Part shown: piece after piece, positions 2,484-63,700 of the stretch
How positions within the stretch are numbered: the first letter of the stretch is position 1
Layout: each line of letters opens with the position of its first letter
From: Symmetrospora coprosmae
Lineage: Eukaryota; Basidiomycota; Cystobasidiomycetes; Symmetrosporaceae
Length of the DNA: 64,000 nucleotides
Assembly (NCBI GenBank): GCA_008802785.1
Contig: VUYT01000005.1
Location: 496,001 to 560,000, forward strand
Reading direction: 5' to 3'
The notes under the pieces: model-generated
What the model saw: only the letters and a program-made list of their open reading frames with translations
What the model was told of the DNA's origin: nothing
Databases searched by the model: none
Translations under genes and position numbers: made by a program

Positions 2484-3888
<1,405 letters not shown>

Positions 3889-4694
3889 GGCGTGTATTAT
3901 GCTTTGCGGCAGCGCCGATATCGACGTAGATGTGGAATGATGCGATGAGTTGGGAAAGAGCGGAGGGAGAAGTACGGCTGTTGGTGTGTGGGCCCACTCT
4001 AAAGTGCAGCAGCGACGCCCCTGACAAAGCACGTCAAGCGCTTTGCGAGCAGGCAGGCAAGGCTAGATGAAGCCAGCATCCCAAGTAATAGAAACCGGTA
4101 GCGAGTGCAGACTTCAATCAAGACGCATGTGTGTGAGGTCTCTCTTCCAAATATGCCGGTGCACTTCTTGCATGCGGTCTCTCCCTTCGCGGTCCGCTCT
4201 GGCTTGCAGCAGGCCTGGCTCGGAGTCGCCCGCGCTGCGCCCTTCTGCCTCTCGCTCACTGCACACACTGCACTCCAGAACAGACCAAGAAGGGACAGTC
4301 GACAGTTTGGAGACAGAGGTGTGTACAGGCAGAACGGTAGCAGGGATGCTCAACGCATCGCACTGCGTCAACTCCAATCTCCGCTCTGCTGCAACCGGGC
4401 TGACACTGAGGCGCTGCCCGTCCCTCATTCGCCAGCTTGCCCCGTCCGCCCGTCCACTGCAAATCCTCCAACCCGCCCCAAAGCCAGCACCCACCTCGTC
4501 GTATGCCTTGTGAGTTGCGGGAGAGAGCGACAGAACGCATTCCACAAGGACTCAGCTGACTGTGTCATCGCATACACGCAGCTGGAGACGACTATCTGTA
4601 CCTCATCACCTTCCCTGCCTCCGCCATCTGAGTCCCCCCTTATCGGACCACCCTCCTCCTCCATCTCGCCCGGCAATCGCCAGCAATTCACAAG
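3889..4694. promoter_or_regulatory. Divergent promoter region, CWC24 / CPA1
   Basis: No separate gene is supported. It carries the 5' sequences of both divergent genes, several short upstream ATGs, and the spliced CPA1 leader ORF listed separately (4503-4631). Confidence 0.6.
4503..4631 (+). promoter_or_regulatory. Candidate spliced upstream ORF in CPA1 leader
   Basis: An ATG at 4503 is followed after seven bases by GTGAGT (intron 4510-4581, ending CGCAG). Joining gives an 18-codon ORF reading MPSGDDYLYLITFPASAI, stopping at 4629-4631, 63 nt before the CPA1 start. Arginine-specific CPA1 genes of fungi carry a leader peptide, the arginine attenuator peptide, with a conserved Asp-Tyr-Leu core. 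The DYL core is present here but the downstream Asp-His-Leu-Trp part is not. This is a hypothesis from position and partial motif only. Confidence 0.35.
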
Positions 4695-6436
4695 ATGGTC
4701 AGCCCAGCCATCCTCCGCAAGAGCAGCAGCGCACTGCCAGCGGCATACCGTAGCTACGCTACAGTGTCGTCCATCATCCCGCCTGCAGTCGCCAATGCCC
4801 TGAGCAAGGCAAAGTCTGCCGTTACCCCGGCACTCGGCGGTAGCTCAAAGACGGCCGGCCTCCAGTACGGCGTGTCTGCAGCGAGGGACCAAAGGATCCC
4901 CGCCTCGCTCCATTTGAAGACAGGGCAGACCTTCACCGGGACCTCGTTCGGATCCACCGAGTCTCGCTTCGGAGAGACCGTCTTCTCGACTTCCATCACC
5001 TCGTACACCGAGTCAATGACGGATCCATCCTACTCGTCGCAGATCCTCGTCTTCACCACGCCCATGATTGGAAACTATGGCGTCCCCGTCAACAGCCTGT
5101 CCAACGGATCCACCAACGGTCCGCTGTTCCCGCTCGAAAGCAAAAAGATTGAGTGCAGGGGCGTCATCGTCACGGACCTGGCAGAGAAGTACTCGCACTA
5201 CCAGGCGACCGAGTCACTCCACGAGTGGTGCAAGCGCCACAACGTACCAGGTATCACCGGTGTCGACACCCGTGCCATCACCCAGCTTCTCCGCAACTAC
5301 GGTACCACGCTCGGCCAGATCGCAGTAGGCGACGAGCACCTCACTCGGCCCGCCGAGGCAGACTACTGGGACCCAGCATTGGAGAATCTCATTGCGCAGG
5401 CGAGCACCAAGGAGGTCTACACCATGAATGAGGACCCTACAAACCCGAGCCAGGTCAAGATCGCCCTTCTCGACTTCGGCGCAAAGGCCAACATCATGCG
5501 CAGCCTCGTCAAGCGCGGCGCGGCTGTAACAGTGCTGCCATGGGACACGCCCCTCGACGCCTCGCTCATGTCGAGCTTTGACGGCCTCTTCTTGTCGAAC
5601 GGGCCGGGCGACCCAAAGCACGGCATGCCTGCCGCCCAGCACGTCCGCGAGCTCCTCGACGCCGACTGGTGGTGCAACAAGCCGGTCTTTGGCATCTGCA
5701 TGGGCAACCAGATCCTCGGCCTCGCCGCTGGCATGGAGACGTATCGCATGCCCTACGGCAACCGTGGCCACAACCAGCCGGTCTTGGCCCTCGCCGGCAG
5801 CGGTGTCATCAAGAAGGGCAGGATCTACGTCACCTCGCAGAATCGTGAGTGCACTTCCTGCTTGCGATGTGTAATGTGCTCATTGCTGTCGACCCATTCT
5901 GACAACTCGTGAAAATCCCTCCAACCTCCCAATCCTTGCTCCCCGCCTCCACTTTGCCCATCGTCGACTGGCCCCATCACAGACCAGTACGCTGTCAAGC
6001 TAGAGGAATTTCCGCAGGGTTGGGAGCCGTTCTTTATCAACGCCAACGTACGTCGCTATCGCCCTCTGCGAACCGCTTGTCCTGAAACTTCCGACTGACC
6101 GAGATCTCCCTCTCCGTTCCTCCAGGACTCGTCGGTCGAAGGCATCAAGACGACTGTCGAGTCTGGCAAGAAGGTCTGGGGTGAGTGACTGGCCTCTCTT
6201 TTGCAAGTACCCGTCTTTGCAAACATGGCCTGATTCCTGCGCACGTTCCCTCAAAATCAGGCGTGCAATTCCACCCAGAATCGGCTGGCGGTCCGCTCGA
6301 CACGATTGCCATGTTTGACTCGTTCCTCGACGAGTGTGCAGCGAGCAAGATGGTCCTCTCTGGCGGAGCTGTCGGCGGCATTCCCGAAGCTCGCAAAGGC
6401 GCACCGGCCATGATGCAGCCACCTTCTGCGCTCTAG
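4695..6436 (+). CDS. CPA1: Carbamoyl-phosphate synthase small subunit, arginine-specific
   Basis: Glutamine amidotransferase subunit that supplies ammonia for carbamoyl phosphate in arginine synthesis. Exons 4695-5844, 5983-6047, 6126-6180 and 6261-6436 give 481 residues. The first 40 residues are rich in Ser/Ala/Arg with no acid, like a mitochondrial presequence. The CPSase small-chain N-domain (LKTGQTFTGTSFGS, FTTPMIGNYGVP, GITGVDTRAIT) is followed by a class I glutaminase with the nucleophile cysteine in PVFGICMGNQILGLAAG. The catalytic His and Glu are in VQFHPES, which is split by the last intron. A single small-subunit gene, rather than a CAD fusion, indicates the arginine pathway. See the leader ORF for possible translational control. 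Confidence 0.95.
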
Positions 6437-9800: not shown

Positions 9801-12800
9801 TGCCTGCATGGCAATGGCAGCTTGCACAATGGGCGCCGGACCTCAACGTTATCGCATACACTGGCAACACGGAGTCGAGAAAGATCATCCGTGACCACGA
9901 GTTTGGCGATAACAAGAAGCTCAAGTTTAATCTGCTCTTGACTACGTACGAGTTCATTCTGAAGGACAAGAACCAGCTGGGCCAGATCAAGTGGCAGTAT
10001 ATGGCGATTGATGAGGTGAGTCACATTGGCAACGAGGATCCATGTCTGAGAACGATTTGATCTGATCTTTATCCCGGACAACTACAGGCTCATCGTCTGA
10101 AGAACTCAGACTCGCAGCTCTACGAAGCACTGTCAAGCTTTACCTGCTACGGGCGACTGCTCATTACTGGCACGCCGCTTCAGAACAACGTCAAAGAGCT
10201 TCTTGCCTTGATGCACTTCCTTCAGCCCGAGAAGTACGACCTCCTCGAGTCCGATTTCGACCTGACCGACGAAGATAAGGAGGCCAAGATCAGAGACCTG
10301 CACGACAAGCTCAAGGATATCATGCTGCGCCGACTGAAGAAGGATGTTGTCAAGGAGCTGCCGACCAAGAGCGAGAGAATCCTGCGAGTTGAGATGTCGC
10401 AGATGCAGATGTGGTGGTACAAGAACATCCTTGCGAAGGTGCGTTCTCATCAGGAGTTGCTAAGCCCGGCCCTATCGCTAATAGCCTCGGCTCTCTCGCC
10501 TGCGCAGAACTACGCTGCGCTCACCTCGAACGAATCGCAAGTTTCACTGCTCAACATCGCTATGGAGCTTAAAAAGGCATCCAATCATCCATATCTGTTC
10601 GATGGTGCAGAGCAGCGAAGCGACTCGCGCGAAGTCACCTTGAAAGGCCTCGTCGTCAACAGCGGCAAGATGATTCTGCTCGACAAGCTGCTGACCCGCC
10701 TCAAGGCCGACGGACACCGAGTGCTGATCTTCTCGCAAATGGTTCGCATGCTGTGAGTAGCTTTGAGATTGCTTCGGCAACGTCATGTTTATGCTGACAC
10801 TCTTGACCGTCAAAGGGACGTGCTCTCCGATTACCTCGCTCTGCGTGGCTACATCTTCCAACGACTCGATGGTACCGTACCTTCCGACGCACGGCGTCGG
10901 TCGATCGAGCACTTCAATGCTCCCGGCTCTCCCGACTTTTGCTTCATCCTGTCAACACGAGCTGGAGGACTCGGCATTAACCTCGAGACCGCAGACACGG
11001 TCGTTATCTTCGATAGTGACTGGAACCCGCAGGCAGATCTGCAGGCCATGGCGAGAGCGCACCGCATTGGCCAACAATCGCACGTCAATGTCTATCGCTT
11101 CGTTACGAAGGACACGGTCGAGGAGGACGTGCTGGAGCGAGCGCGGAAGAAGATGATTCTCGAGCACGCCATCATCTCGCAAGTCGACACCTCGGGTCTC
11201 AACATTGGCAAGAAGTCAAAGACTGCAACGGCGAAGGAGAACTACAGCAAGGAGGAGCTCTCAGACATCCTGAAGTACGGCGCTTCGAGCATCTTCAAGA
11301 GCGAGGCTAATCAGGCTCAGCTCGAGGAGATGAACCTCGACGATGTGCTCAACAAGGCAGAAGACTACGAGACAGATGTCGCGCCTGGCGGCACGTCTCT
11401 GGGAGGCGAGGAGTTCTTGCGTATCGCGGTACAGGACGTCAAACACGACCTGACCTCGTGGGACGACATCATCCCGATTGCCGACCGCGAGCTTGCCATC
11501 ATGGAGAAGCAGAAGGCGGACGACGCACAGGCACTAGAGAGGAAGAGCAAAATCAAGAGTATGGTCTCGACCAGCTACCAGGCAGCAGCCGAATCGGACG
11601 ACGGAACCGAGAGCGCTTCATCATCCACCAACCAGAAGAAGTCGAAGAAGAGCGGGCCAAAAGCCGGGAAGACCGTTGCACAGCGGGCCGTTGAACTTAA
11701 CGAGAAGGATGTCCGCCTTCTCGTACGCGGTATTCAGAAGTTCGGCGACATTCGCTATCGCTACGACAAGATTGTACAGGACGCAAAGCTCGAACGGAAG
11801 AATCGCTCCATAGTCCAGCAGACGTCAGACGAGATTATCAAGGCGTGCAAAGCAGCCTTGGCAGAGCACGAGGAGGAGCTCAAGGTCATGCAGGCAGCCG
11901 GCGGCGATACCAAGAAGCAGAAAGCTGTCATCATCACCGTTGCAGGTGCATCCGGCATCAACGCGGAAACGACAGTCGGGCGCTACGAGTACCTGCAGAT
12001 TCTCAACGAAAGTCAGTGGCTGGTCTAACAGGGCTATACGACTTCTCCACGCTGTTTCATCCGGACTGACATACGCGTTCCTTCCCAACACGCAGTGCTC
12101 TCACCGCACAAGAAACCGGAAGCGACCTGGAAGATTCCATCGGACAGCATCAAGGGCACGCAGAGCTGGAGCGTGCCCTGGTCGGAGACAGATGACGCCG
12201 CTCTATTGGTCGGTATCTGGAGGCATGGCTTCAACAACTGGGAGGCCATTCAGGACGACGAGAGCCTCAACCTGAAGGGCAAGATGTTCCTCGAGCCGAC
12301 GCGAGGCGGCGCGACAGACAAGCAGGATACCCCAACCCCTGGCCCAGATGGAGTCGCCGACAAGGGCAAGAAGACGAAAAAGGTCAATGTACCCGGACCG
12401 GTGCACCTCGTCCGTCGGGGCGACTACCTTCTTCTCGTGTTGCGAGACTGCGAGTCCGGATCCAAGATGCACAAAGACACCCAGGCGAAGAAGTCCGTCT
12501 CCAACGAGGCCAGCGCGGCCGCCCGGCCAAAGAAGCCGAAGCCGTCTGCATCGGCTTCAGCCATAACTTCCGGATCGGCCAACGGAGCACCGGCGCAGCG
12601 GGAGGATTCGGTATCAGCTGGCGCAGCGCCAACTCCCCCTATTTCGAAGGCCATCAAGCGCGAAGGTAGCGAAGCCAAGGTGACGAACGGAGCTTCGCAC
12701 AAGCAAGGAACGCCAATCGAAAGCAAGAAGACCAAGCCTGACAAGAAGGAGGGCTCGGCAAAGGCCAGTCATGACAAGGTCAAGAAGGAGGCTGCCAAGG

Positions 12801-13231
12801 AGTCTAGCTCCGAGGAGGAGAGCGATGACGACTCTCCAGAAAGCGGCTTCAGCATTGCAGAATGCAAGGAGCGGCTCCGGACCGTCAAGAAGGACTTGTA
12901 CAAGCTCAAAGACTGCGCCACCCTACCTCGAGAGGAGAAGGTAGCGGTCCTCACACGATGCCTGCTCTCTGTGGGCGACCACATCACTACACTCCTGAAG
13001 GACCCCAAAGCCCTGCAGAAGTGCACGGAGACGCATCTGTGGATGGCGACGGCCATGTTCTGGCCGGTAAGCGGCGTTCAATGGAGCGCCATCAAGGCAA
13101 TGTGTGAGTTGACCGGAGCCTGAACGACCGCGCTGGTGGGTGCTCTGCTGAGTGTCTTTGCGCGTACCGACCCCATAGATTCTAAGATGTCGGCTTCAAG
13201 GAGAACTGCGCCTGCGCCTGCGCAACGCTAG
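6858..13231 (+). CDS. CHD1: Chromatin remodeller CHD1
   Basis: ATP-dependent nucleosome-spacing enzyme. Exons: 6858-6873, 7431-7993, 8069-8189, 8271-8786, 8853-8930, 9008-9253, 9325-9620, 9698-10015, 10088-10438, 10508-10752, 10816-12011, 12096-13103 and 13179-13231; total 1668 residues. The N-terminal 400 residues are acidic and Lys-rich. Two chromodomains follow (near 405-480 and 515-560), then SNF2 ATPase motifs GLGKT (about 614) and DEAH (717-720, split by an intron), ITGTPLQNN, and helicase-C [11 protein letters not shown] and HRIGQ. A SANT/SLIDE-like region precedes the CHD1 C-terminal helical domain ([10 protein letters not shown] onward, about 1567-1660). The second exon has no ATG before residue 88, so a 16-nt first exon (MNPAN plus one base) behind a 557-nt intron is proposed. 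Only that first exon is uncertain. Confidence 0.93.
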
Positions 13232-42899: not shown

Positions 42900-45880
42900 T
42901 CAAGAGACGGGCAAGTTGCCGACTCCGACGTTTCCAGCGAGGGCGAGGCGGATGCCTCTGAATCCAGTCTGGTAGCGGTAACGCCCTGCAGCTGCTCGGA
43001 CGACCTTCATCTCCTCTTTCATATCGAGAGTCTCGATGCTGTCCTTATCGATTTGCTGTCGGAAAGCGCTGAGCAGATATGCGGCCACTTCTTCCGCTCG
43101 CGCAGTTGCCAAGGGCGCAACAGGGACGATGAAGTCGGCCTCGGATGCGAAGTCCTGCCAAGATGGATGCGCTACGGCTCAGCTCATAACGCTGTGTATG
43201 CGATTAGAGCATTCGAAGGACGACACACCCCGATGCTGTCTTCCAGCGTGTCTCGCAGCTCGCCGGCCGCGAAGCTCAGGGTGGCCTCTGGGGACGGCGA
43301 GCCATGGCAAGACTCAGTGAAGGACAACCAGACACATCATCATGCGACCAGACGTACCGCTGAGAACCCTATCGTCCAGCTTCTGGCTCTCTGTCTCCTT
43401 CCACCAAGCCGCAATCTGTTTCATACCGGCACTGACAGAAGCCACGATCACAAAGGCCTGGCAGTCGATAGTGACACTTCCTTTCTCGGTCTTAGCAACC
43501 AGGCATCCTGCGCAGCGTGGAAGACTATCAGATCAGGTCAAGCTACGACGCCGCGCTCCCGCAGCTCACCGTCTCGCATCACGTCCACCCAGGCCTCTTT
43601 GAGCGCTTCAGGGTATTTATCGAACCTGTCCAGGAAGAGCAGCACGGGAGCGCCCTTGCCTTTCGCTAGCATGGTCAAAGTAGCGTCGTCGATGCCTTCG
43701 CCTCCTTCTCCTTTGACAATGTGGAACCTCATGCCCGCTGCCTGGGCCATTTGCTTGGCACAGTGCACCTGTCCGTGATCCGCGGGACCTGAAGCGTGAA
43801 GCGCACCGAGTCAGCTCATGCGACGTAGCCCTCTCGGTGCCACCGCAGCTTTTTTGGTTGTAACTCACCCGCAAAGACTGCAGTAAGAGGCCGGCTTTCA
43901 TCTCCTCCTAGAATAGCGTCCCGGTGATTGACGATGCTGGCAAAGTGATTGGCAGCGATCATGTCCGAAGCGACTGCGGCACGAGCTGCGAGAAGGCTGC
44001 GGACCGCGCAGGTGGCTCTGGTGTAGAACTGGATTATGAGTGCGACGTCCCAATCCTCGTCCTTAAGGAGGAGATCATCCAGCTCGGCCATGTTAAGAGG
44101 CTCGTGTCGGTAGAGGCGGGCCGGAATGGCAGAGATGTCGGCCCCGGCGGCCAGGAGCGCTTCCAGCATGATGGCCATGTCGTGTGCGCTGGTGACGTGC
44201 TCTGCACATATGGCGAAGACAGCAGCGTCGAGCGCTCGAGACCGTTTGCTGACCGTCGCAGCACCGCAGTGGATTAAGACGCTGGCCAGCTTAGGCCGAC
44301 CGGCCTTGATCGCGTAGAGAACGGGATGGCCGAGGTTGAGCAGCTCGGCTCGCTTGCTGACTGAGATGGTCTGCAGGCATTCGATCACGACGACGTCTGA
44401 TAACATTGCCTCTTGCTCTATCATCGAGCACAGCTGGTCGACTCCCCGCTGCATGTCGGACGGGCTCGCCTCCCAGCCGGACGCGAGGGCCTTGTCCTCG
44501 GGACGCGATACGGTGTGGACCAGAGGAGGGAGGTCAGATCCCGACAGTACCTGTTGTATGACAGAGCCTCGAATGCATCAGCAGGAGCGTATAGAATAAG
44601 TAGCCGGATCCACGCACTTCGGCAGCAACAGAGCATGCCGCTTCAGACGTTCCCTCGGCAAGATTCGATGATACGCTCTCGACGCCTTTGTCAACCGAGT
44701 CTTGCTCATCTGCGAGGTCGGAAACGCTGGCTGTACTGGCAGTAGCCCCGGCAGCAGGATTCGACAAGGATGGAGGGCTATCGGCCCTTTGCTCGTTCTC
44801 GCTGTCCTCGTCATCTTCCGGGTCGTTGACGTGACGAAGCAGCTTGAAGGGGTTGCCTTTGTCCGACTTCTGAGGAGGCTGTACGTTGACCTTCGCCTTC
44901 CCATGTGCGGCGACTGTCGCCCAGGTAGAAGTCGAGTTGCCATGGTGGGGCTTTGTGCCGGGAAGCTCGGTTTTCAGGAATTCTGCGAGGCGTGGACAGG
45001 CTTCATTATCGACGATGCGCAGAACGTGCGAACGTTGGCGTATACTCACCTTCGAGCTCTGTCTGCCTGGCGAGTCGGCGTGCTTTCTCCTCGAGCGTCT
45101 CCTCTTTCGGACGCACCGACGCCTTCACTCGACGCTCCGAAGAGTGTCGGAAAGTACAGTTTTTGCCGAAGGGGCATCCGGCATCGGTTGTAGAGTACTT
45201 GCACTCGAGACTGGCAGAGTAGGCGAACTTGCTGTTGCCGCCAGCGACTGAGCGCTTCTTCGCCTTGGTTCCGCTGTTGGTACCCTCGAGCTCTTTCTGA
45301 CGGACGTGAATGTAAGTGCAGGATGCTCCACGAGGACACTCGAGATCGGTGGAGCCGAGCACGCAAGGCAGAGTCCTGTAGTAGGGGTGTTTCTTGCCTT
45401 TGGTCGAGCTGTTCGAAGCAGGAGCGACCTCCTTGGATTCAGGCACAAAGTCTGGATGGGACCCACGTGCGGGATGGAGCGAGACATCGAGCAGGGTAAC
45501 CACAGAGCAGCAGCACATCAGCTCTGCCTTCAAGCGTACCAAGCTGCTCGCTTTGGACAGCAGGGCAAGTTCGGCGGGCTGGACCCACTGTCCAGAGACA
45601 TGGTGTCGGACGCGTCGTCGCCCTCGAAGTCGCCCGTGCTACCCGAAGGGGCGGACGATGAGACGCCTCGAGCTGGAGTAGCAGCAACTGGCTTGGCTTT
45701 TGGCTGCACCTGACTGCTGTTCCCACCGTCGTTCAATGCAGACTTTATATGTGCAGTATCTTTAGCCTTTGCAGAGCCGCCCTGCCCCGTCGCATGGCGA
45801 AATGCGCAGGCAGATGCACCCCATGGGCACTTGCCCTCTGGATAGGCACAATCCCTTGTACGATAGTTGAGGGCTGGCAT
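42900..45880 (-). CDS. CCCH zinc finger - ankyrin-like - degenerate ClpB-type AAA+ protein (copy A)
   Basis: Exons on the minus strand: 45880-45589, 45451-45050, 44982-44618, 44550-43869, 43788-43570, 43507-43358, 43287-43229 and 43154-42900; 807 residues. There are three CCCH fingers: residues 11-29 (C-x6-C-x6-C-x3-H), and two C-x8-C-x5-C-x3-H fingers near 127-146 and 182-202. A disordered acidic linker leads to an ankyrin-like region (GHPVLYAIKAGRPKLASVLIHCGA). The C-terminal AAA+ part aligns with copy B but is degenerate. Where B has the Walker A loop, this copy reads GPADHGQVHC without Lys-Thr. Walker B is LLFLDRFDK, Glu replaced by Arg. The pore-loop segment is missing, and sensor 1 reads VASVSAG rather than TTNAG. 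The C-terminal small-domain motif GFRGIRLAL remains. A pseudo-ATPase, possibly RNA-binding through its fingers. Confidence 0.82.
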
Positions 45881-47062
45881 TGTCGATGCCCTGACACTAT
45901 CAAACTTTCAGGTCGTAAAGAGGGCAAGCAGCAACCCTCCGTGCAGAACCAGATGCGAACGGAGGCGGCCTGTGCGGAGAGCCGAAATGTGGCAACAGAA
46001 AAAGGCAAGACGCGTCCGGGCGTGCAAAGAGGAGAGCAATGCTCCGCAAGACCGTATTTGCGATCATTCGTAGGAGCATCTCTACCGAAACATCGGTCTG
46101 CGACGGACAGATACCTAGAAGGGCGGAATGCCTGTATCGCGGAAAGAGACAGCTGTGAGACTTCAAGCGAGCATGTTGGTGAGAGAGAGGGAGAGACCAG
46201 GCGAGCCCGCTATCGACACCAGCATCTCCGCTTCCTGCAGATAAAGCGGCTCGCTCTCCTCATCGATGTCATGACTGTGTGGAATAGAGGAAGCGGACTT
46301 GGAGGAAGGTCCGGTGTTGGAAGCGGGCTTCTGCGCGCCCGGCGATACTTGAGAGAGCTGGGAACCGGATAGCACTTGTTCACAATGGGGCAGCTTCTTG
46401 CGATAAGGGAACCGGTCGAGCCTCGTCCCGCTTGGGACACCGCTCCTCCCTTGCGCAGTGGCCGCCCTATTTGAGCGAGACTGCCTGAGCAGCAAAGACC
46501 GACCTGCGGCCGTTAGAAACCGATCGTAAAGCGGCGGGCCTGACCTGCAGTTGGCAGATTCGCACAGCCTGCCTCGGGCCTGCCTTCTCTGATGAAGGAG
46601 ACCTGCCTTTGCGCTGGGGTACCGACGAGGAGCGAAGGCTGCTGAGCCTGCGGCAACTCAAGGTGCCGAGAAGGCAAGGGATGTTAGGGGAAGCATGCGA
46701 AGGCTTTGTCAAGGTGCAGGGCAACCTCCGTTGATTGCACGATATCGCTAATTGGCGACGTGTACGCGTACATCGGGGTTGCTCCTGTCTACTGCAAGGG
46801 CCGACCGCCAAGCTCGACAGCCTTGTCTGTGCATCAGCCAGAGACGTACGCGCGCCTCCGCTCTCTCATCAAGCAAGGTGGGCGGAGGAGATCGTGAGTT
46901 CTGCTTTGCGCAGACAAGGGGACCGAAGCTGACGACAGGCAGATATGGGAGCGGGCGAAGGAGGAAGGGGGAGGGGGAGGCGACTAACGACGATTGGGGT
47001 ATAGGACGCAGTGCACCACTTTGTTTTTTCTGCGTAGCCGAGACTTGACACGCAGGTGTATC
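45881..47062. other. 1.2-kb spacer between the two tandem CCCH-AAA+ paralogues
   Basis: It should contain the copy B terminator and copy A promoter. A minus-strand open frame at 46495-46163 is Ser/Pro-rich, but it lacks an ATG and splice partners and is not called. No repeats marking the duplication edges are obvious. Confidence 0.45.
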
Positions 47063-49256
47063 CTACGTCGAGGCGATGTTCCTGACCTGAACGCGAGCGG
47101 GTTGTTCCTCGCTGACGCCAAGTCGCTTCTCCTCGAAAGTGCGAGGCGGAGCAGCCTGCACCCCATGGTATCGCTTGGACACGGGAACGCCGACGTGCCT
47201 GGTCAAAGACTCCCGGAGACCCCGGAAGCCCGTCGCCATGCGGTACTTGTCCGCTATAACGGTAATAACGGCCATCTCTTGATCGAGCTCAAAGCTCAGG
47301 ACGTTCTTGACGCGCTTGCCGAGGCTCCTGCGGAAGTCGTAGAACATGACTGCAGCCGCTACCTGGCTCTCCTCGGGCGTGAAGGGGAGGAAGGGATGAC
47401 CATGTCAATTCGCGACATCAGAGGTTCCTGGCGCATCACGGGAGAAGCGTCAGAGCTCATCGTACACGAGGGCGCCTTAAGAACGAGTAAAGCGCCAACT
47501 CACGCCGAAAAGACCCTCAAAGTTGGCGCGCAGGATGTCCTCGCCGAAGTGGTAAAAGTCATCTGCCAAGCACAAGTTAAAAGCATTAGTCACATGTGGA
47601 CGTCTCTACCCAATACTCAAAAGAACACTCACCGGCGGAGACTTTGCCGTTGGCCATTCGCTCCTGGTGCTTGATCCACCAGGCTTTGATCGGCTCGGAA
47701 CCAGCGTTCGTCGTGATGAGGACGATGAAGCGGCTGCAGTCGACCCTTTCTTTGTTCCGGCGATCGATGTAGTAGCCTGAGTTAGTTCGACGAGAACAGG
47801 TCGTCAGCGAAGGGTACCGAGGTGAATGAAGGGTCCAACTCACCCTCCTCGAGGATATGGAGCCACGCCTCGCGGATGTCCTTGCCGCACTTGTCAAGCT
47901 CGTCGAGCAGAATAACTGCTGTCTTGCCATTGTTCTCGGCAAGGAAATTGTTGAGTGGAGAGCCCTCCTCGCATCCATGGAATGGCGGAGGTGAGCCGAA
48001 GAGCTCCCTTTGGTCCTCGGCGCCAGCCAGATCAACGAAGTAGAGGGGCGCATCGACACAGGCAGCGACATTCTTGACGTAATAGGTCTTGCCGTGCCCG
48101 GCGGTACCTGCAGGAGACAGGGTCAGCGGAGCACGAGCGCATGACCGCCAGAGAGTGTAAAGAGGCTTACCCGGAAGGATAGCCACGAGCGGCCTGCGGC
48201 TGTCCTCGTAGGTGAGGCTTCGATAGAGGATGAAGTCCTCGATCCTCTCTCCCAGAAAACGCTGCCCGACCTGACCGTATCGGGCAGCGATGATGCCAGA
48301 GGCGTCGAACTTGGCCAATGAATGTTCCTTGCGCAGGGTCTGAGGCTCAAAGCCCTGTGCGATCCGAATGTAGTATCGGATCACGCAGTTGAGTCGCTCG
48401 TGCAGCCGCTTGACGATGGCGAGTGGTAGAGCCCAGCTGTGCTCTCGATGCAGCTGGGCTACTTGTGCCGTCTTGAGAGGCTTGTGCTCGATCAGCTGGG
48501 CAGGGATGATCTTTGAGTCGCAGCCGAGCGTGAGCAAGAGTAGGACCATGGCGATAGCGTCGTCGCTTGGTCCGTACGAGTCGTGGCACAGTGCCCACAC
48601 AAGAGGATGCATTCCCTTGATGGGCGTATCGAGCTTGGCTCCGTGTTTGACGAGGATCTTAACGACTCCCGGCCGTGCGTGCTGGATGGCATACGCGAGC
48701 GGTGTGTAGCTCCCAAGTGCGAGAAAGCCAGCTCGGTAGCTGGGCTGCACCTGCTTGATGGCGTCTTCGACAGTCCCGTCATCGAAGAGATCGGGTCGGG
48801 CGATCATCGAAGACAGCTGACTGGACCCGCGAGCCTGGAGGGCGTTCCAGCGGGCAGTCTCGTCGACATCAGCCTTCTTGGTGAAGGCATACTCGGGACT
48901 CGGAGCGAGCAGGATCAGGGGAGTCTGTGCGCGGTATCAGAGGGGTCAGCGCTCTATACGGAGGGTCGGCGATCTCGCCAATGGGAACAGCGTCTTTGAT
49001 TGCGTGAACGCACCTCAGCGGGGGAAGGCTCCGGAGACGGGATTCTGCTGGTGATCCCAGAGTCGGGGGAGGGCGGCGACGCTGAGGGCTCGTCCATCTG
49101 AGACGCTACTTGACGCTTGATGTGTACGTGGAAGGGCGCTCTCGGGCATTTGGACCCTTGCGGACAGGTCTGGTCGGTGTCACCTGTTGAGCAAGTGCCC
49201 CAGTAGCTGCCGGCGGGTGCGGCGCGGTCTGATCTGGCGTTGCCTGTTTTCACCAT
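47063..49256 (-). CDS. CCCH-like zinc finger - ankyrin - ClpB/Skd3-type AAA+ ATPase (copy B)
   Basis: Exons on the minus strand: 49256-49014, 48924-48171, 48107-47844, 47776-47633, 47562-47504, and a last exon ending at 47063. A CCCH-like finger lies at Cys22-Cys31-Cys37-His43. The middle has ankyrin-type repeats (YTPLAYAIQHARPGVVKILVKHGA). The AAA+ domain has Walker A GTAGHGKT (about 333-340, joined across an intron), Walker B VILLDELDK (near 400), sensor 1 LITTNAGSE and sensor 2-like GFRGLRESL. Ankyrin plus one ClpB-D2-like AAA+ is the layout of metazoan CLPB/Skd3, a disaggregase. The last exon has a problem. Conserved SRIDMVIP is followed by FLPFTPEESQ only with a +1 shift near 47395. With acceptor 47372 the frame holds but this block is lost. 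Confidence 0.82.
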
Positions 49257-49904: not shown

Positions 49905-51245
49905 ATGGCACCTGAGCGCACAGCGTCCAAGGCGAAGCCGCGAGCTCCCAAGCACCAGCGGCCAGCACGCAAAGCGCGGCCGGTGCCCTCGGTGCAGGAG
50001 CGGCTGCAGAAGGCCTGGAGGTCAATCAAGGACCAAGTCCAGGATGGGTACCCAGAGCACGCCCTGAAAAGCGTCAACAAGCGTGAGCTCTGTTACCGAT
50101 AGTGATATGCAGCCTCGACGCACCTGACCGTCCTTCTTCCCGCTCTGCAGTGCTGCAGCTCGACCCGTCAAATCACCTCGGCAAGCAGACGCAGCTGCAG
50201 CTCCTCCTCAGCCTAGACCGCTACAGGGAGACACTCGAGATCATTGCTGCTTCGGAAAATGCTGGAGATCACCGTATCGAGCAGTGTTATGCGCTGTACA
50301 AGCTCGGAAGGATGGAGGAAGCGCAGAACGTCCTGGACGCGGTGCGCGCGGAGCAGGGGGACGCAGATGAAGGCACGCAGCGCACGCTTGACGTATTGGA
50401 TGCCCAGATTGTGTGTCTACTCTCGCCGCACCTCTCGCCCTTCCACGCTACGCTGAGCTCCGTACCTTTGACCCTCAGAAATACCGTCTCGAGCAATTCG
50501 AGGATGCTCAACTGCTCTACGAGGACCTGCTCGCAAGTGCCGAGACGGTGCGTATCGGTCACATACCGCAGTTTGACATGTAGCTTACAAGTCTCATTTG
50601 CAGGACTCTCCTGAACACGCCGACCTGTCGACCAACCTGAGCGCAGTGAACGCCCAGCTCGATTTCATCAGCAGCGTCCCTTCTCTGCTCGGCGACATCC
50701 AGTCATCGTCAAAGCCGCTGCCCAGCATCGAGCACTTGGAGAACACACCCGTTGCTCCTCTTGTCTCTTCGCATCGGGCCTACCGAGCTCGCGTGACCAA
50801 CGCCGTCGCACCGACGGCGGAACCATCAGCCTCGACATCCGCCTCGACATCTGCACCTAGCACAGCTGCAAAGGGCAAGCGCGCGAAGAAGCAGCCAAAG
50901 AAGGACGCCCCGGCCAAGACGAAGAAGGTCAAGCTGCCGCCATCCATTGCTGCGCTGCCGGAAGATAAGCGGCCCGCGCCGGACCCAGAGCGCTGGCTGC
51001 CCAAGCGGGAGAGGAGCGGATTCGCCGAGCAGATGGCTCAGAAACAGAAGGAGAAGGAGAAACAGAGGCTCAAGGCGAGAAAGAAGATGGAGGCTGCTCT
51101 CACCCAGGGTGCCGCCGCGGATGAGGGCGCTACTCCCTCTGCAACCCAGGGGCAGACTGCAGGACGGGGTCAACAGCAGCAGCAGCAGCAAGGCAAGGGT
51201 CAGCAGCAACAGCAACAGCAGAAGAAGAAGAAGGGCAAGAAGTGA
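49905..51245 (+). CDS. SRP72: Signal recognition particle subunit SRP72, short form
   Basis: SRP72 pairs with SRP68 and binds SRP RNA. Exons 49905-50082, 50151-50410, 50479-50547 and 50604-51245 give 382 residues, well below the usual 550-700. A basic N-terminus precedes TPR-like helices (YPEHALKSVNKLLQLDPSNHLGKQTQ and YALYKLGRMEEAQNVLDAVRAEQG, EQFEDAQLLYEDLLASAE). The sequence then passes quickly into the C-terminal RNA-binding region. This has a Lys-rich block and the diagnostic PDPERWLPKRERS, followed by a KKxxQ-rich tail with two polyglutamine runs. Family identity rests on PDPERWLP and the TPR start. The middle TPR superhelix of other species is absent. Confidence 0.82.
51171..51221 (+). 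repeat. CAG/CAA repeat coding polyglutamine in SRP72
   Basis: Two runs of CAG/CAA codons (seven each) separated by a Gly-Lys-Gly spacer, near the SRP72 C-terminus. A likely length-variable microsatellite. Confidence 0.85.
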
Positions 51246-52398: not shown

Positions 52399-53674
52399 GA
52401 TTGCTGTCTGAGTGTTGGTGGAGTTGTGCGATGAATGGAACCTGAGTGGCGGTTGCGCGATCGAGTGACTCGTTGGGAGATGGTCGAGCTCGTGTGGATT
52501 GGGCTCGCAGAGTGCGGTTGTGTGGAAGAGAACAGAGAGTAGTGTTCGTCTGTGGTTCTTATGAGAGTGGATGCCGCTGGCTGTGGTCTGATCTGACCAT
52601 GTCTCGGTGGTGACGCCCTAAGGAGGTGGGCTTGTGGTACGCTAGCGAGCTAGGGGCACTTTTTAGGGGTCGCCGGCGGGCTTTGGCAAATTGCGGCGGA
52701 GCGAGCGGGTGTTGGATGAAGAAGAGACAAGAAGGGCGGGACAGGAGAGGAGGCTCTTATGAGACGACAAGCAGACGGGCAGCCAGCACCGATGGTGCTA
52801 TGCGGCGCTTCGGAGACAATCGCTGGAGAAGTCGTGGTGCGCGCTCGCGTTCAGTGGCCGTCCGCGACTGCTCCGAGCTGGCCCGCACTCGCCCGGAAAC
52901 TTCTGGACCAGACCGATTTCACGTCCAAGCGCCCCTCGCGCCACAAACAAGTGTCCCTGGATGCCTCCGTTGTCGTCGAAATCAGCTTTGTCATCCCGGA
53001 GCCAGCTGCTCCGCGGTCCCGCGACACGTCACAGCGTGCGGGCCTCCGCGAAAATAGGGGGCAGCGAGACTGCCCGCGGCGCTGCGATGTGGGTGCCAGC
53101 CCGCGCTTGAGATCTTGAGAGGTGGTGCGACTGCCGAGGACTGCCCAAATCGCTTCTCTTCGGCGCGCGAAGCTCGAGTTCTGGATGCTTCGAGCGCGTC
53201 GCGACCTGCACAGAGCCACAAACACATTGCTCGCGAATCGGGAGCCTCTCGAAACTCGTGTTTTCCGAGATCTGGGACGGCGAACTCCGTCAAACGCTGT
53301 CGAACGGAGGCTTCGCCGGATGTCCGCCGTTGACCTGGGATGCTCACTTGACCCCTGCACTCTGCTCATAGCCTGCTTACGAGCAGCTCAACAAGTACGG
53401 CTCGCAGTAGGCTCCCTTCTCGATGTACACTGATGTACCTCTCGCGAAACGCCAAAGGACATGCCTTTTCTCGGAGACGGCTGAATCTCCCTTCCGACGG
53501 TGTTTGTCGTGAACGTGCGTCGCGCTCGTCACGGTCTGCCTGCATGACTTCTGCTCGACTCGCCTGTGCGCGAATCGCGACTGCCAGTTCGCTCGCCCTC
53601 TCGCGGCCTACCTACCAACACCAATCAGCAGGAAAGTCGGCGCCAAGAGACGAGACTCACGCGGAGCCTCCATC
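52399..53674. promoter_or_regulatory. 1.3-kb divergent intergenic region
   Basis: The longest gene-free stretch in the window, between the Ser-rich gene and the first SRR1-domain gene. Open frames on both strands lack ATG-plus-splice consistency or motifs. No repeat family is visible. A non-coding transcript is possible but unsupported. Confidence 0.45.
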
Positions 53675-54806
53675 ATGAGCGACATCCGTCCCACCACACC
53701 GCTTGCCATATATGAGGCACAGTCAGCAGATCTCGAGGTCATGGGCTTCATGGCTGCTCTAGATGGTAAGTCGCCCTCTCCCACGACCTCCGAGCTATCA
53801 GCTTGGGCTGACTCGCTTGCGATGGGCGACCGTCCCGCAATAAAAGCTTCGATGGCTTCGGTACTGGCACGCTACAACGACACCAACCTTCTACGTCCGA
53901 CGCGGGCTGTCTGCCTCGCTTTAGGCACCTTCACTCTAAGTGATTCGCCAGACGCCGAGCGTGCAGGCGCTCAGCTCGCCGCTTTCGTTCGCCTGCTAAA
54001 CGGTTTTGGTATCGACAAGACGTCCGTCAAGTGCCACGACCCTCGGTTCACCAGCGAAGATATAGAATTCCTCTGCTCGCTCGGCTTTGATGTGCCTGGA
54101 TCCCCCGAAGAGTCTAAGGCGGATTTGATTTGCGACGAGCCCACCCTGCTGTTCTTGCCGTTCCTCCCATTTCCCGTCTACGAGCTCATCTTTCAACTCA
54201 ACTGGTCGCCTGCAAGACTGAAGAATGTCGTGATGGTTGCACCTCAGCTGGAAGGCTGGCTAGATGATCAGTAGGTCTGGTCCATACAGCAACCATGAGC
54301 ATATCTCCCGACCAGGTTCTCATGCATGTCCACCATAGCATCTGGTTTCGTCACATGAAGGAGGCATACATTCCCCGGACGCAGCGCTATCGTAGGTCAC
54401 AGAGGACACAAGCAAAGGACGCCTTAACGGCCCATGCTGACAGAGCCGCATTCCGCCCCTAGTACCGCTTTGCGATCTTGAGGCATTGCCAATCGTTCAG
54501 GACTGTCGAGCTCGCTTCGTCGCATCCGGCGGGGACGATGCTTTCTTGCAAGACCGGTGCTACGGCCTGGATGACCTGCACTTGCGGTGGATCCCGCCCG
54601 CCAGACTGTCGCCCATGGGAGTCCGATTTTGGGCTATTGCGAAGCGAGACGACAGCAGTTGGGTGCATCTGGCATCGAGTGACGAGAGGGATGAATGGGT
54701 CAAGGACGCGCAAGGAGCAGAGGACGAGGTTGGACCGGATCGGCTGGGCGGCGAGCCATGGCTCCTGGTCAAGAAGCTCCGTCTTCCCGCTAGGGCTAAG
54801 CTCTGA
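53675..54806 (+). CDS. SRR1-domain protein, tandem copy 1
   Basis: SRR1/BER1-type domain; plant SRR1 acts in light and clock signalling, and yeast BER1 affects microtubule-drug resistance. The chemistry is unknown. Exons 53675-53765, 53847-54270, 54339-54391 and 54463-54806 give 303 residues. Domain signatures are RPTRAVCLALGTF, AGAQLAAFVRLL, VKCHDPRFTSEDIEFLCSLGF, PTLLFLPFLPFPVYELIFQLNW and LKNVVMVAPQLEGWL. Exon 3 encodes IWFRHMKEAYIPRTQRY. Exon 4 encodes a C-terminal extension YGLDDLHLRWIPPARLSPMGVRFW shared with copy 2. The first intron is 81 nt, divisible by three and stop-free, so retention would add 27 residues. Conserved exon borders with copy 2 show a tandem duplication. Confidence 0.85.
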
Positions 54807-60735: not shown

Positions 60736-63700
60736 CTACACGTACTCGACAGCTGCCACGGCAGTCAACAGCACTAGGAACGGTACAGTGAAACAGCTCG
60801 TCAGCTTGGCGCCATAACCGAAGCTGGCGTGCGCCAGCACTCACTGGGGTCAGTCCAATCCGGCAAAGCCCTGTCGAGCCTTTCGAGGAACTCCATCCCC
60901 GTCCTGTTCTGGTTCTCTCGGTGGTGCCACATCCGGTTGACGTCGAGCCCGGAGAAGTCAACGCGCACCCCGCCGATTTTGCGGTCTTCCTCCTCCTCGG
61001 GCCCACCTTTGGGCCGCTGTCCTTTCCGCCTCTGCGCGTTGCGCTGTGCAGCGGCAAACTGCTCGTCCGTGAGCTTGAGCGTCATCGACAGCTCCCACGT
61101 ATCAACGCCGGCGCCCGACACCTCCTTGACGTGGTGCCGGTGGTCGCCCCGCTCCGCCGGCTCGGGCAGGTCCCACTGCACGACGTCGCCGTTGAACGCC
61201 ATCACCGTCCAGATGATGCCCGGGTGACGCAGTGCTAGACGCACGTAACGTGTCTGCGTGACGGCGTTCAGGCGGGACTCGATGGCCTCTACCTTGAAGC
61301 TGTCCTGAAAGGGCGAGACGTACTCTGCTGGTGCCCATGCAGGAAGGGGGATCTTGTAGGAGTGGAGGAATTGGCTGACGGGATAGATCTGCAGAGGTGT
61401 ATGATAGTCAGTCTCTCCTCCACCGTCTGCTAAGCATAAAGGCTCCCTACAATGTCCCAATCTGGGATGGAATCGCCAATGTCGGCCCACACTGGCTTCT
61501 CGAGCATGCCCAGCTGCGCCGTGCTCGCGTGCACCAGATCCTTGAACACCGTTCCCGCCCCGTCGATGTTTGCCATGTGCAGTGAGAGGTCGTGGCTCGT
61601 GATGTTCTCCATGTACAGGCAGAGGACTCGCTTGGGGTGCATCGCGTCGAACGTCGGTCGCGTCGATGACGCAAAGACGGAGATGATGACGCCGATGGCA
61701 AGCGTGAAGACTAGTGCCACCTTGGCCAGGAAGGCAGAGCCCCATCGATGGCATAGCGCCGGCAGGGTCGGAACGACCAGGAAGCCAACACCAGATACTG
61801 TTAAGCAGAGAGGAGCGTGAGAGCCTGCATTATCAAAGCCCCGACGCACTTCAATTGGGAATCACTGACCGAGAGACGCGGTGATTATGTCGCCAGGCGC
61901 TTCTACGCCCATACGGCCAGTCAGCGGGACCACAACGTCCAGGAACGACATGAGCCCTTCCGGGCCAGCAATCATTGACGGGACCTGGGCGAGCAGGTAC
62001 GCCAGGATCGAGACTTTCTGTCTTTGTGATTGTGCTCCTTGTCTAACGCCAGCAATGACGAAATCATTGATAACCAGAGTCACGAAGAGGGCCGCGGCTG
62101 CAATGCCCCAGCAGTAGCTCGAGCTGAGAGCTTCATTGCGTCAGCACGGGCCGCTAGTACGTACGGGCGAGCGTCGGAACTCACAGCATGCCGAGGGAGT
62201 GCCCGACCAAGGCGAAGGTGCTGTTGTAGATGAGCGCGGCGTACAGTAGCGAGTGCTCGAGCGCTCCTTCTCCGGACGGGAGAAGCCTCTGCGAGTAGAC
62301 GATCCGAGCTGTCACCAGCTGGCAGAGGATGATGCCTGCGTATGTGCATGTGTGTGTCAGACGTGAGATCGTCATAGCGCATCATGCTAAGCCTTCTATA
62401 AAGTACGTACCTAGGAGAGCCGGAGTGCCGTACAGCAGCACGCTCCACCATTCCCTTCTAAAGTACGAAAGTGGCTTATCGAGAAGGTAGGCCATGGTCA
62501 CCGCAGTCAGGTTGGCGGTCAACAGAGCAGACACGAGCGAGCCAGGTAAGCTGAGCAGGGCCACAGCATAGCCTGCCCTTCGGCCTTCCTGCATCCGGGT
62601 CCAGATGAGCGCGACACATGCGAGCCAGAGGACAGCATAGCCCGCGAGGACGTAGTTGGCCTGGATGCAAACAAATATGCGGCCTCCGAGCATGGCGAAG
62701 TAGACTGTCTCTCGCGCCTTTGTGACGTTGCGCAATTCGTTGGCCGTCGTCGTGCCAGCGAGGTGGACGAGGATGGCGAGGACGTTGTCGCCAAAATGCT
62801 GCAGTGCCCCACGCTCAATGTACTGGGCCCGGTCGAGCCGTGTGTGGTACTTGTACGAGTCTTTGACCAGGGCCATGTCGAGGCCCGTCAGTCCCCCATA
62901 CTGTTCGAATTGCCGGAAGTCGGTGTCGGAGAGGATGAGTCCGGTCTGTCGCGGCAGCGCATCGCCGTATAAGCTCACGAGGCGCCTGTACGGAGGCTCA
63001 AGCTTGATGACTCACGCCAAAGACCTCCGTAGCTATCACTGCGCCGTTCGGACGCGGAACATGCGAGTACGCCTTGAGCATCTCGGTGCTCGTGGCTTGA
63101 AAGAGCATCTCGGCACCTGCAGTTCCTGCGGCCTCAAGATTCACCACAGCCCGGACGCTGTCATCGCACGCAGACGTGTGGTCAGCGTGGCGTTGGATGC
63201 CTCGGATCCTGCGTGCGCAGCCTTACGTTGAGCGCCACTCATGTTGCGTGATGAAGAGATGGCTCGCATCCTGCAGACTCTCTTCGGCGCCATTGAAGAG
63301 GAAGATGATGGCATTGCCGAGCTGGATGTCCGGCGTTTGCGACATTACCCTGAGAGCCTCAAGCATGACGCCCACGCCCGCTGCATCGTCGGCCGCCCCT
63401 AGAGAAGCAGCAAGAAGCGGCAGGCTGTCAGTTTACACTCGCCACGAAGGCGACATTGAGTGCCCAGCTGCGAGCTACGCACCGGGGGAGGGCAGGGTAG
63501 AGTCCAGATGAGCATTGACAAGTATGGCGTTCGCCTTGCTTGCGGCAGTACCGTTCGACAGTCGAACGACCACGTTCTCGAGCCCGAGATACTTCTTCCA
63601 GACCTTCTTGCCCATGCTGCAGTCACGTTAACAGCATTCAGCACGATGCACCCCGGCTGACATGCATCGAGAGGCTAATGACGACATGCTCCTGCCGTAC

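Follow-up and report, generated by a model that had tools for sequence, protein, structure and literature searches.

CLPB/Skd3 (ANKCLP), a mitochondrial disaggregase of animals and choanoflagellates, combines an ankyrin-type region with one following ClpB-D2-type AAA+ module that carries the catalytic motifs; it has a mitochondrial leader and a GYVG pore loop. ANKCLP is described as having arisen in stem holozoans (PMC4339202), and Skd3 as first appearing in choanoflagellates (PMC7343390). Three other systems offer partial parallels: (i) the Hsp104, ClpB and ClpA rings, with AAA+ modules of the D2 type; (ii) the ClpB-D2-like ATPase Torsin, for which LAP1 is described as a dead partner that targets and activates it and supplies an arginine finger (PMC4358337); and (iii) the plant ANK-RR-TZF proteins, described as combining ankyrin repeats and tandem CCCH zinc fingers in one protein (PMC8609832). 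Here, we analyzed a window of 64,000 nt from contig VUYT01000005.1 of the fungus Symmetrospora coprosmae, in which two neighboring minus-strand genes (49256-42900 in window coordinates), referred to as A and B, appear to join CCCH fingers, an ankyrin-like region and a Clp-type AAA+ module.

Gene A resembles CLPB/Skd3 in that its one ClpB-D2-type AAA+ module, carrying catalytic motifs, comes after a region that is likely of ankyrin type. The pair differs from CLPB/Skd3 by its CCCH fingers, which occupy the place of the mitochondrial leader of Skd3, the PFHG loop of A, an ankyrin part that is barely recognizable, an apparently dead tandem paralog and the fungal host. Unlike the two-module Hsp104 and ClpB, A carries one AAA+ module with CCCH-like and ankyrin-like parts before it, and the N- and M-domains of Clp proteins were not recognized in the pair. 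With Torsin and LAP1/LULL1 the locus shares an active-looking ClpB-D2-like ATPase and a partner devoid of nucleotide motifs that may serve in targeting (PMC4358337). The plant ANK-RR-TZF proteins, as described, carry no AAA+ module and have an arginine-rich region before their fingers (PMC8609832). A fungal family combining CCCH, ankyrin and Clp-type AAA+ parts was not found in the open-licence literature of PubMed Central (PMC), in line with an earlier note on this DNA, and may be annotated elsewhere. A search of the same literature for dead AAA+ paralogs likewise returned no paper.

Hand-built gene models confirmed the two minus-strand neighbors that the note had placed at 42900-49256, with six exons in gene A (49256-47063) and eight in gene B (45880-42900). 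Judged by sequence homology, A and B are old tandem paralogs. In pairwise alignment, 28% of positions were identical in the ankyrin-AAA+ part and 37% in the lid. Both genes have a phase-0 intron ahead of the ankyrin exon, then three introns of phase 1 and a last one again of phase 0, and in each the penultimate exon measures 59 nt. It is this homology, together with the matching intron phases, that points to an old tandem duplication. Both genes also show the order CCCH, ankyrin-like region, ClpB-D2-like AAA+ module and lid, and their ancestor very probably already combined a single ClpB-D2-type AAA+ module with one or more CCCH fingers and an ankyrin-like region. The shared domain order claimed in the note is partly confirmed, with the corrections that A has one non-canonical finger and that the ankyrin-like region falls below the Pfam cut-off in A and goes unseen by Pfam in B.

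The AAA+ module of gene A passed the Pfam cut-off (AAA_2, E = 7.5e-10), and human CLPB/Skd3 ranked first when solved structures were searched by sequence (50.2 bits; best Hsp104 44.2, best ClpB 40.4). Compared with the motif map of CLPB as given in PMC9934407, gene A retains Walker A (GTAGHGKT), Walker B (LLDE), sensor 1 (TTN) and the arginine finger (SRID); its lid piece has a GFR that resembles sensor 2. Pairwise BLAST scored A at 65.5 bits against the CLPB segment and at 51.2 bits against the D2 module of this genome's own Hsp104, with 129 bits between CLPB and Hsp104. We read the module as D2-type, leaning to CLPB in its pairwise scores, and it may share descent with CLPB. For the lid, the ClpB_D2-small profile matched A only, below significance (E = 0.17), so the small C-terminal domain named in the note did not emerge by this profile; in the PDB, the lid met no relevant match (best rows glutathione transferase, E = 0.79; a second search was empty).

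The corresponding module of gene B was recognized by neither Pfam nor the PDB sequence search. It was detected through its homology to A, and direct comparison with the CLPB segment gave 27.7 bits. Lost are the lysine of Walker A (GPADHGQV), the glutamate of Walker B (LDR), the asparagine of sensor 1 and the arginine finger (SRID replaced by SEAD); a GYVG-type pore loop is absent, and GFR is kept. Given what is established about AAA+ motifs, the loss of these residues means that B should not hydrolyze ATP in the usual way, and its module is predicted to be dead. On its motifs, the pair is thus made up of one active-looking subunit (A) and one dead subunit (B). The note had assigned a ClpB-D2-type AAA+ module to both copies and treated them alike; the assignment holds for A and, through homology to A, for B, whose catalytic residues are lost; the note overlooked this division between the two.

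CCCH fingers are best preserved in B, where Pfam called zf-CCCH_4 in three stretches (E = 1.8e-9). The spacing is canonical in fingers 2 and 3 (C-x8-C-x5-C-x3-H) and reads C-x6-C-x6-C-x3-H in finger 1, and all 12 Cys/His positions are present. Gene A has a single non-canonical finger (C-x8-C-x5-C-x5-H, with x5 instead of x3 before the His), and no CCCH was called there by Pfam. This finger aligned to finger 2 of B with a score of 58. Over the B N-terminus, 5000 full shuffles reached this score 10 times; 5000 shuffles that held Cys fixed did so 14 times, as did 5000 that held both Cys and His fixed. Taken finger by finger with Cys fixed, the counts were 0/5000 for finger 2, 74/5000 for finger 3 and 1087/5000 for finger 1. 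Because the finger of A resembles finger 2 of B above chance, the CCCH part probably predates the duplication and belonged to the ancestor. Matches of the B fingers in the PDB were weak, with Roquin-1 as the best of seven listed (E = 0.011) and tristetraproline at E = 0.38. The type of finger alone suggests RNA binding for B. Of the RNA-tethered remodeling factor proposed in the note, tethering is accordingly plausible for B, with its three fingers, two of them canonical, and doubtful for A.

The region between fingers and AAA+ module likely contains ankyrin repeats, with weak support. Ank_2 matched A with E = 1.1e-4 (23.1 bits, cut-off 27.3), and Pfam gave no Ank match for B. Solved ankyrin chains matched A (E = 1.6e-5) and a profile of A and B (E = 4.5e-7), with no stretch passing on its own. 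Of the profiles that the note had proposed for checking (AAA_2, ClpB_D2-small, Ank, zf-CCCH), AAA_2 in A and zf-CCCH_4 in B were thus found, and the others were below cut-off or absent. Structure prediction, proposed alongside them, yielded low-confidence models from alignments only 2-3 rows deep: the mean predicted local distance difference test score (pLDDT) was 47.5 for the ankyrin-like region and 43.1 for a second model comprising this region and half of the AAA+ module, with intron 2 read through. A Foldseek search with the former returned 415 matches at E <= 10, none of them at 0.001 (best 0.12); 38 of the 50 listed rows had DARPin or ankyrin in their title and 12 did not.

We tentatively favor the explanation that A is a motor and B a dead partner or adaptor acting with it, although we hold even this with limited confidence. 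Protein A would most likely form a ring and, like the single-ring Clp/Skd3 ATPases, use its pore to pull on client proteins. Protein B, having lost residues for ATP binding and hydrolysis while retaining the sequence of the fold, would most likely be a non-catalytic partner or adaptor; it may bind RNA and bring ribonucleoprotein clients to A, or it may limit A. Rings of A with B attached would fit better than a ring in which A and B alternate. The site of action is probably the cytosol or nucleus rather than the mitochondrion, because no leader is evident. In a crude check, neither A nor B showed an evident Skd3-like mitochondrial leader or hydrophobic stretch: the fingers begin at residue 22 (A) and 11 (B), which leaves little room for such a leader, and both proteins have their most hydrophobic 19 residues within the ankyrin-like region. 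The net charge of the first 20 residues, +2 (A) and +1 (B), would still allow a leader. In the 600 bases upstream of A and the roughly 1.2 kb upstream of B, no three-unit heat-shock element with at most one mismatch was found; this was uninformative, since the Hsp104 control region (first 2000 bases of the locus) also contained none.

Several points weigh against this explanation. Gene A is not one open frame in this assembly, its arginine-finger stretch and its lid lying in different frames that meet near 47395. Its pore loop reads PFHG instead of GYVG; the aromatic residue is kept, and a few residues are missing just before the loop. A strictly alternating A-B ring would be expected to be inactive, because B has no arginine finger to offer to the sites of A. 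The parallel to Torsin and LAP1 is loosened in the same way, A having an arginine finger of its own and B none; there is no membrane part, and A and B are clear sequence paralogs. Besides RNA, proteins or DNA can be bound by CCCH fingers. A working disaggregase, the activity suggested in the note, is at most possible for A, given its PFHG loop and interrupted frame, and B is devoid of the residues for ATP hydrolysis.

Carried to its full extent, the joint action of the two proteins would amount to an RNA-addressed remodeling machine of Clp type, in which the motor A and its dead, RNA-binding sister B strip or refold proteins on particular RNAs. We consider this extended version improbable. No Clp/Hsp100-type ATPase directed by CCCH fingers is known to us so far, and this would be the first case. 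Should A and B act together, RNA recognition would be linked to a Clp-type unfolding motor, a link that was not found described in the open-licence PMC literature, and a further ClpB-D2-like ATPase with a dead partner would stand beside Torsin-LAP1. It would also bear on whether ankyrin-Clp fusions had a single origin, placed in holozoans as described in PMC4339202, or repeated ones.

The better preservation of the fingers in B, compared with the non-canonical finger of A, and the low identity of the two proteins (just 28%) would also suit a division of labor in which A and B work apart. B would then be a CCCH-type RNA-binding regulator using its dead AAA+ and ankyrin-like parts as a scaffold, and A a separate remodeler with a vestigial finger. 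The two genes, however, have remained adjacent and have their domain order in common, and we regard independent action as possible, though somewhat unlikely.

Decay of the locus, with A a recent pseudogene through the frame change near 47395 and B a drifting relic that has lost its catalytic residues, appears unlikely. Downstream of the frame change, the lid of A keeps its coding signal (18.8 bits, with -48.1 and -39.8 for the remaining sense frames) and its 37% likeness to B, so any break in A should be recent or an assembly error. In addition, B is open across 807 codons with 12/12 finger Cys/His present, and use of the in-frame acceptors 47369 or 47363 would restore an open frame in A, at the cost of the arginine finger. 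The frame change would stem from an assembly error, a recent mutation or splicing to acceptors such as these.

The ranking of human CLPB as the best solved relative and the higher score of A with the CLPB segment than with the D2 module of Hsp104 might indicate that the pair belongs to the Skd3/ANKCLP family as a fungal branch, its ankyrin-AAA+ origin being common with that of animals. The margins are small, however, and NCBIfam placed ClpA (45.1 bits) and ClpB (39.7 bits) first for A, both far under their own cut-offs. The ankyrin part of the pair had no significant match to that of CLPB (-1.2 bits for that stretch), and neither a leader nor a hydrophobic stretch was evident. Together with the stem-holozoan origin described for ANKCLP (PMC4339202), this makes such a branch quite improbable. 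It is very improbable that the CCCH exons and the AAA+ exons belong to distinct genes that merely lie close. The poor codon score of A exon 1 and the uncertain join of B exons 1 and 2 would allow it, yet intron 1 of A is just 89 nt long, ends about 21 nt after a branch-like motif and could hardly accommodate the end of one gene plus a promoter. Moreover, the order is the same in the two copies, a phase-0 intron precedes the ankyrin exon in each, and their fingers look homologous.

The models behind this comparison (Table 1) were made by hand from the genomic sequence alone. The 12 introns were chosen as GT-AG, so that these boundaries hold by construction; they measure 62-137 nt. A branch-like motif occurred in 10/12 introns and lay 12-30 nt from the acceptor in 8/12; in gene B, none was seen in introns 2 and 6, and the motif was distant from the acceptor in introns 1 and 7. 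The join of exons 1 and 2 across the long intron 1 (137 nt) is the least certain of the gene B model. Coding signal was scored with a codon model trained on 2556 codons from other genes of the same genome, picked by eye (nine of ten stretches used, one discarded for a stop). Seven training stretches lay inside the window; Pfam families were found in five of them and none in 60804-61829, and 12029-13120 fell outside the Pfam scan. The modeled frame was top of six in 14/15 coding segments, including all eight exons of B. The lone exception was the CCCH exon of A (exon 1), with -6.2 bits versus -2.8 for the best antisense frame; exon 1 of B, like that of A, scored below zero.

Table 1. Exons of genes A and B with the motifs and domains they carry (window coordinates).
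Feature	Coordinates	Strand	Content
A exon 1	49014..49256	-	Start codon and single CCCH-like finger (49193-49128); no Pfam call
A exon 2	48171..48924	-	Ankyrin-like region (clearest repeat 48705-48628) followed by linker to AAA+; Ank_2 below cut-off (E = 1.1e-4)
A exon 3	47844..48107	-	Walker A GTAGHGKT, pore loop PFHG, Walker B ILLDE; AAA_2 E = 7.5e-10
A exon 4	47633..47776	-	Sensor 1 TTN
A exon 5	47504..47562	-	59 nt, length equal to B exon 7
A exon 6	47063..47427	-	SRID arginine finger (47415-47398), then frame change near 47395 and, read in other frame, lid (47395-47066) with sensor-2-like GFR
B exon 1	45589..45880	-	CCCH-like finger 1, C-x6-C-x6-C-x3-H (45850-45794); Pfam zf-CCCH_4
B exon 2	45050..45451	-	Canonical CCCH fingers 2 (45365-45306) and 3 (45203-45144), C-x8-C-x5-C-x3-H
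B exon 3	44618..44982	-	Acidic linker
B exon 4	43869..44550	-	Homologous to ankyrin-like exon 2 of A (28% identity); no Pfam Ank match
B exon 5	43570..43788	-	Walker A (GPADHGQV) and Walker B (LFLDR), both degenerate
B exon 6	43358..43507	-	Sensor 1 lost (ASVSA)
B exon 7	43229..43287	-	59 nt
B exon 8	42900..43154	-	Arginine finger lost (SEADF); lid, GFR retained

Intron 2 of gene A (48108-48170, minus strand) is 63 nt long and has no in-frame stop. Its retention would add 21 residues at Walker A and keep the frame, and a splicing-based on/off switch is possible.

No third copy of the pair was found in a six-frame search of the whole 20-Mb genome (GC content 59%), in which only the best candidates were scored. 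Beyond A and B themselves, the search with A met an Hsp104-like gene on contig C50 (E = 2.9e-7) and, weakly, C8 (E = 0.13); B matched C75 weakly (E = 0.84). AAA_2 matches on C33, C4 and C44 were dropped as extra copies, since tblastn of A and B (E <= 0.01) on the loci L001-L008 met only their own locus (L003) and, with A, L001 on C50, which reads as an Hsp104-like gene. Judged by eye from their motifs, the open frames on C33, C4 and C44 look like proteasomal-type AAA ATPases. The Hsp104-like gene of this genome was located at 2668-3486 and 3496-4389 of L036, on the small contig C50 (63 kb).

In the genome-contig and viral-contig collections searched, no relatives of the pair were found. The AAA+ part of A alone (190 aa) matched 1656 plasmid records, and the named ones among the 40 listed were Clp-type ATPases, e.g. 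ClpK, TssH and ClpB. In a phage search with a 408-aa query, 0/114 records (20 listed) reached 80% query coverage. AAA-type matches in PADLOC, obtained with A only (DolB, E = 9.5e-11; PDC-M37B; a weak SspF), were read as reflecting a shared fold.

Other genes of the window lie on the plus strand. The divergent neighbor of A (50090-50611), with a likely start about 0.65 kb from that of A, matched SRP_TPR_like below the Pfam cut-off (E = 5.1e-7), which suggests a likeness to SRP72. Further genes encode (i) the small chain of carbamoyl-phosphate synthase (4632-5909; CPSase_sm_chain, E = 1.4e-44, and GATase); (ii) a Chd1-like chromatin remodeler (10061-12025; SNF2-rel_dom, Helicase_C and Cdh1_DBD_1), apparently split by frame-keeping introns; and (iii) an SRR1-domain protein (53513-54271; E = 5.6e-22).

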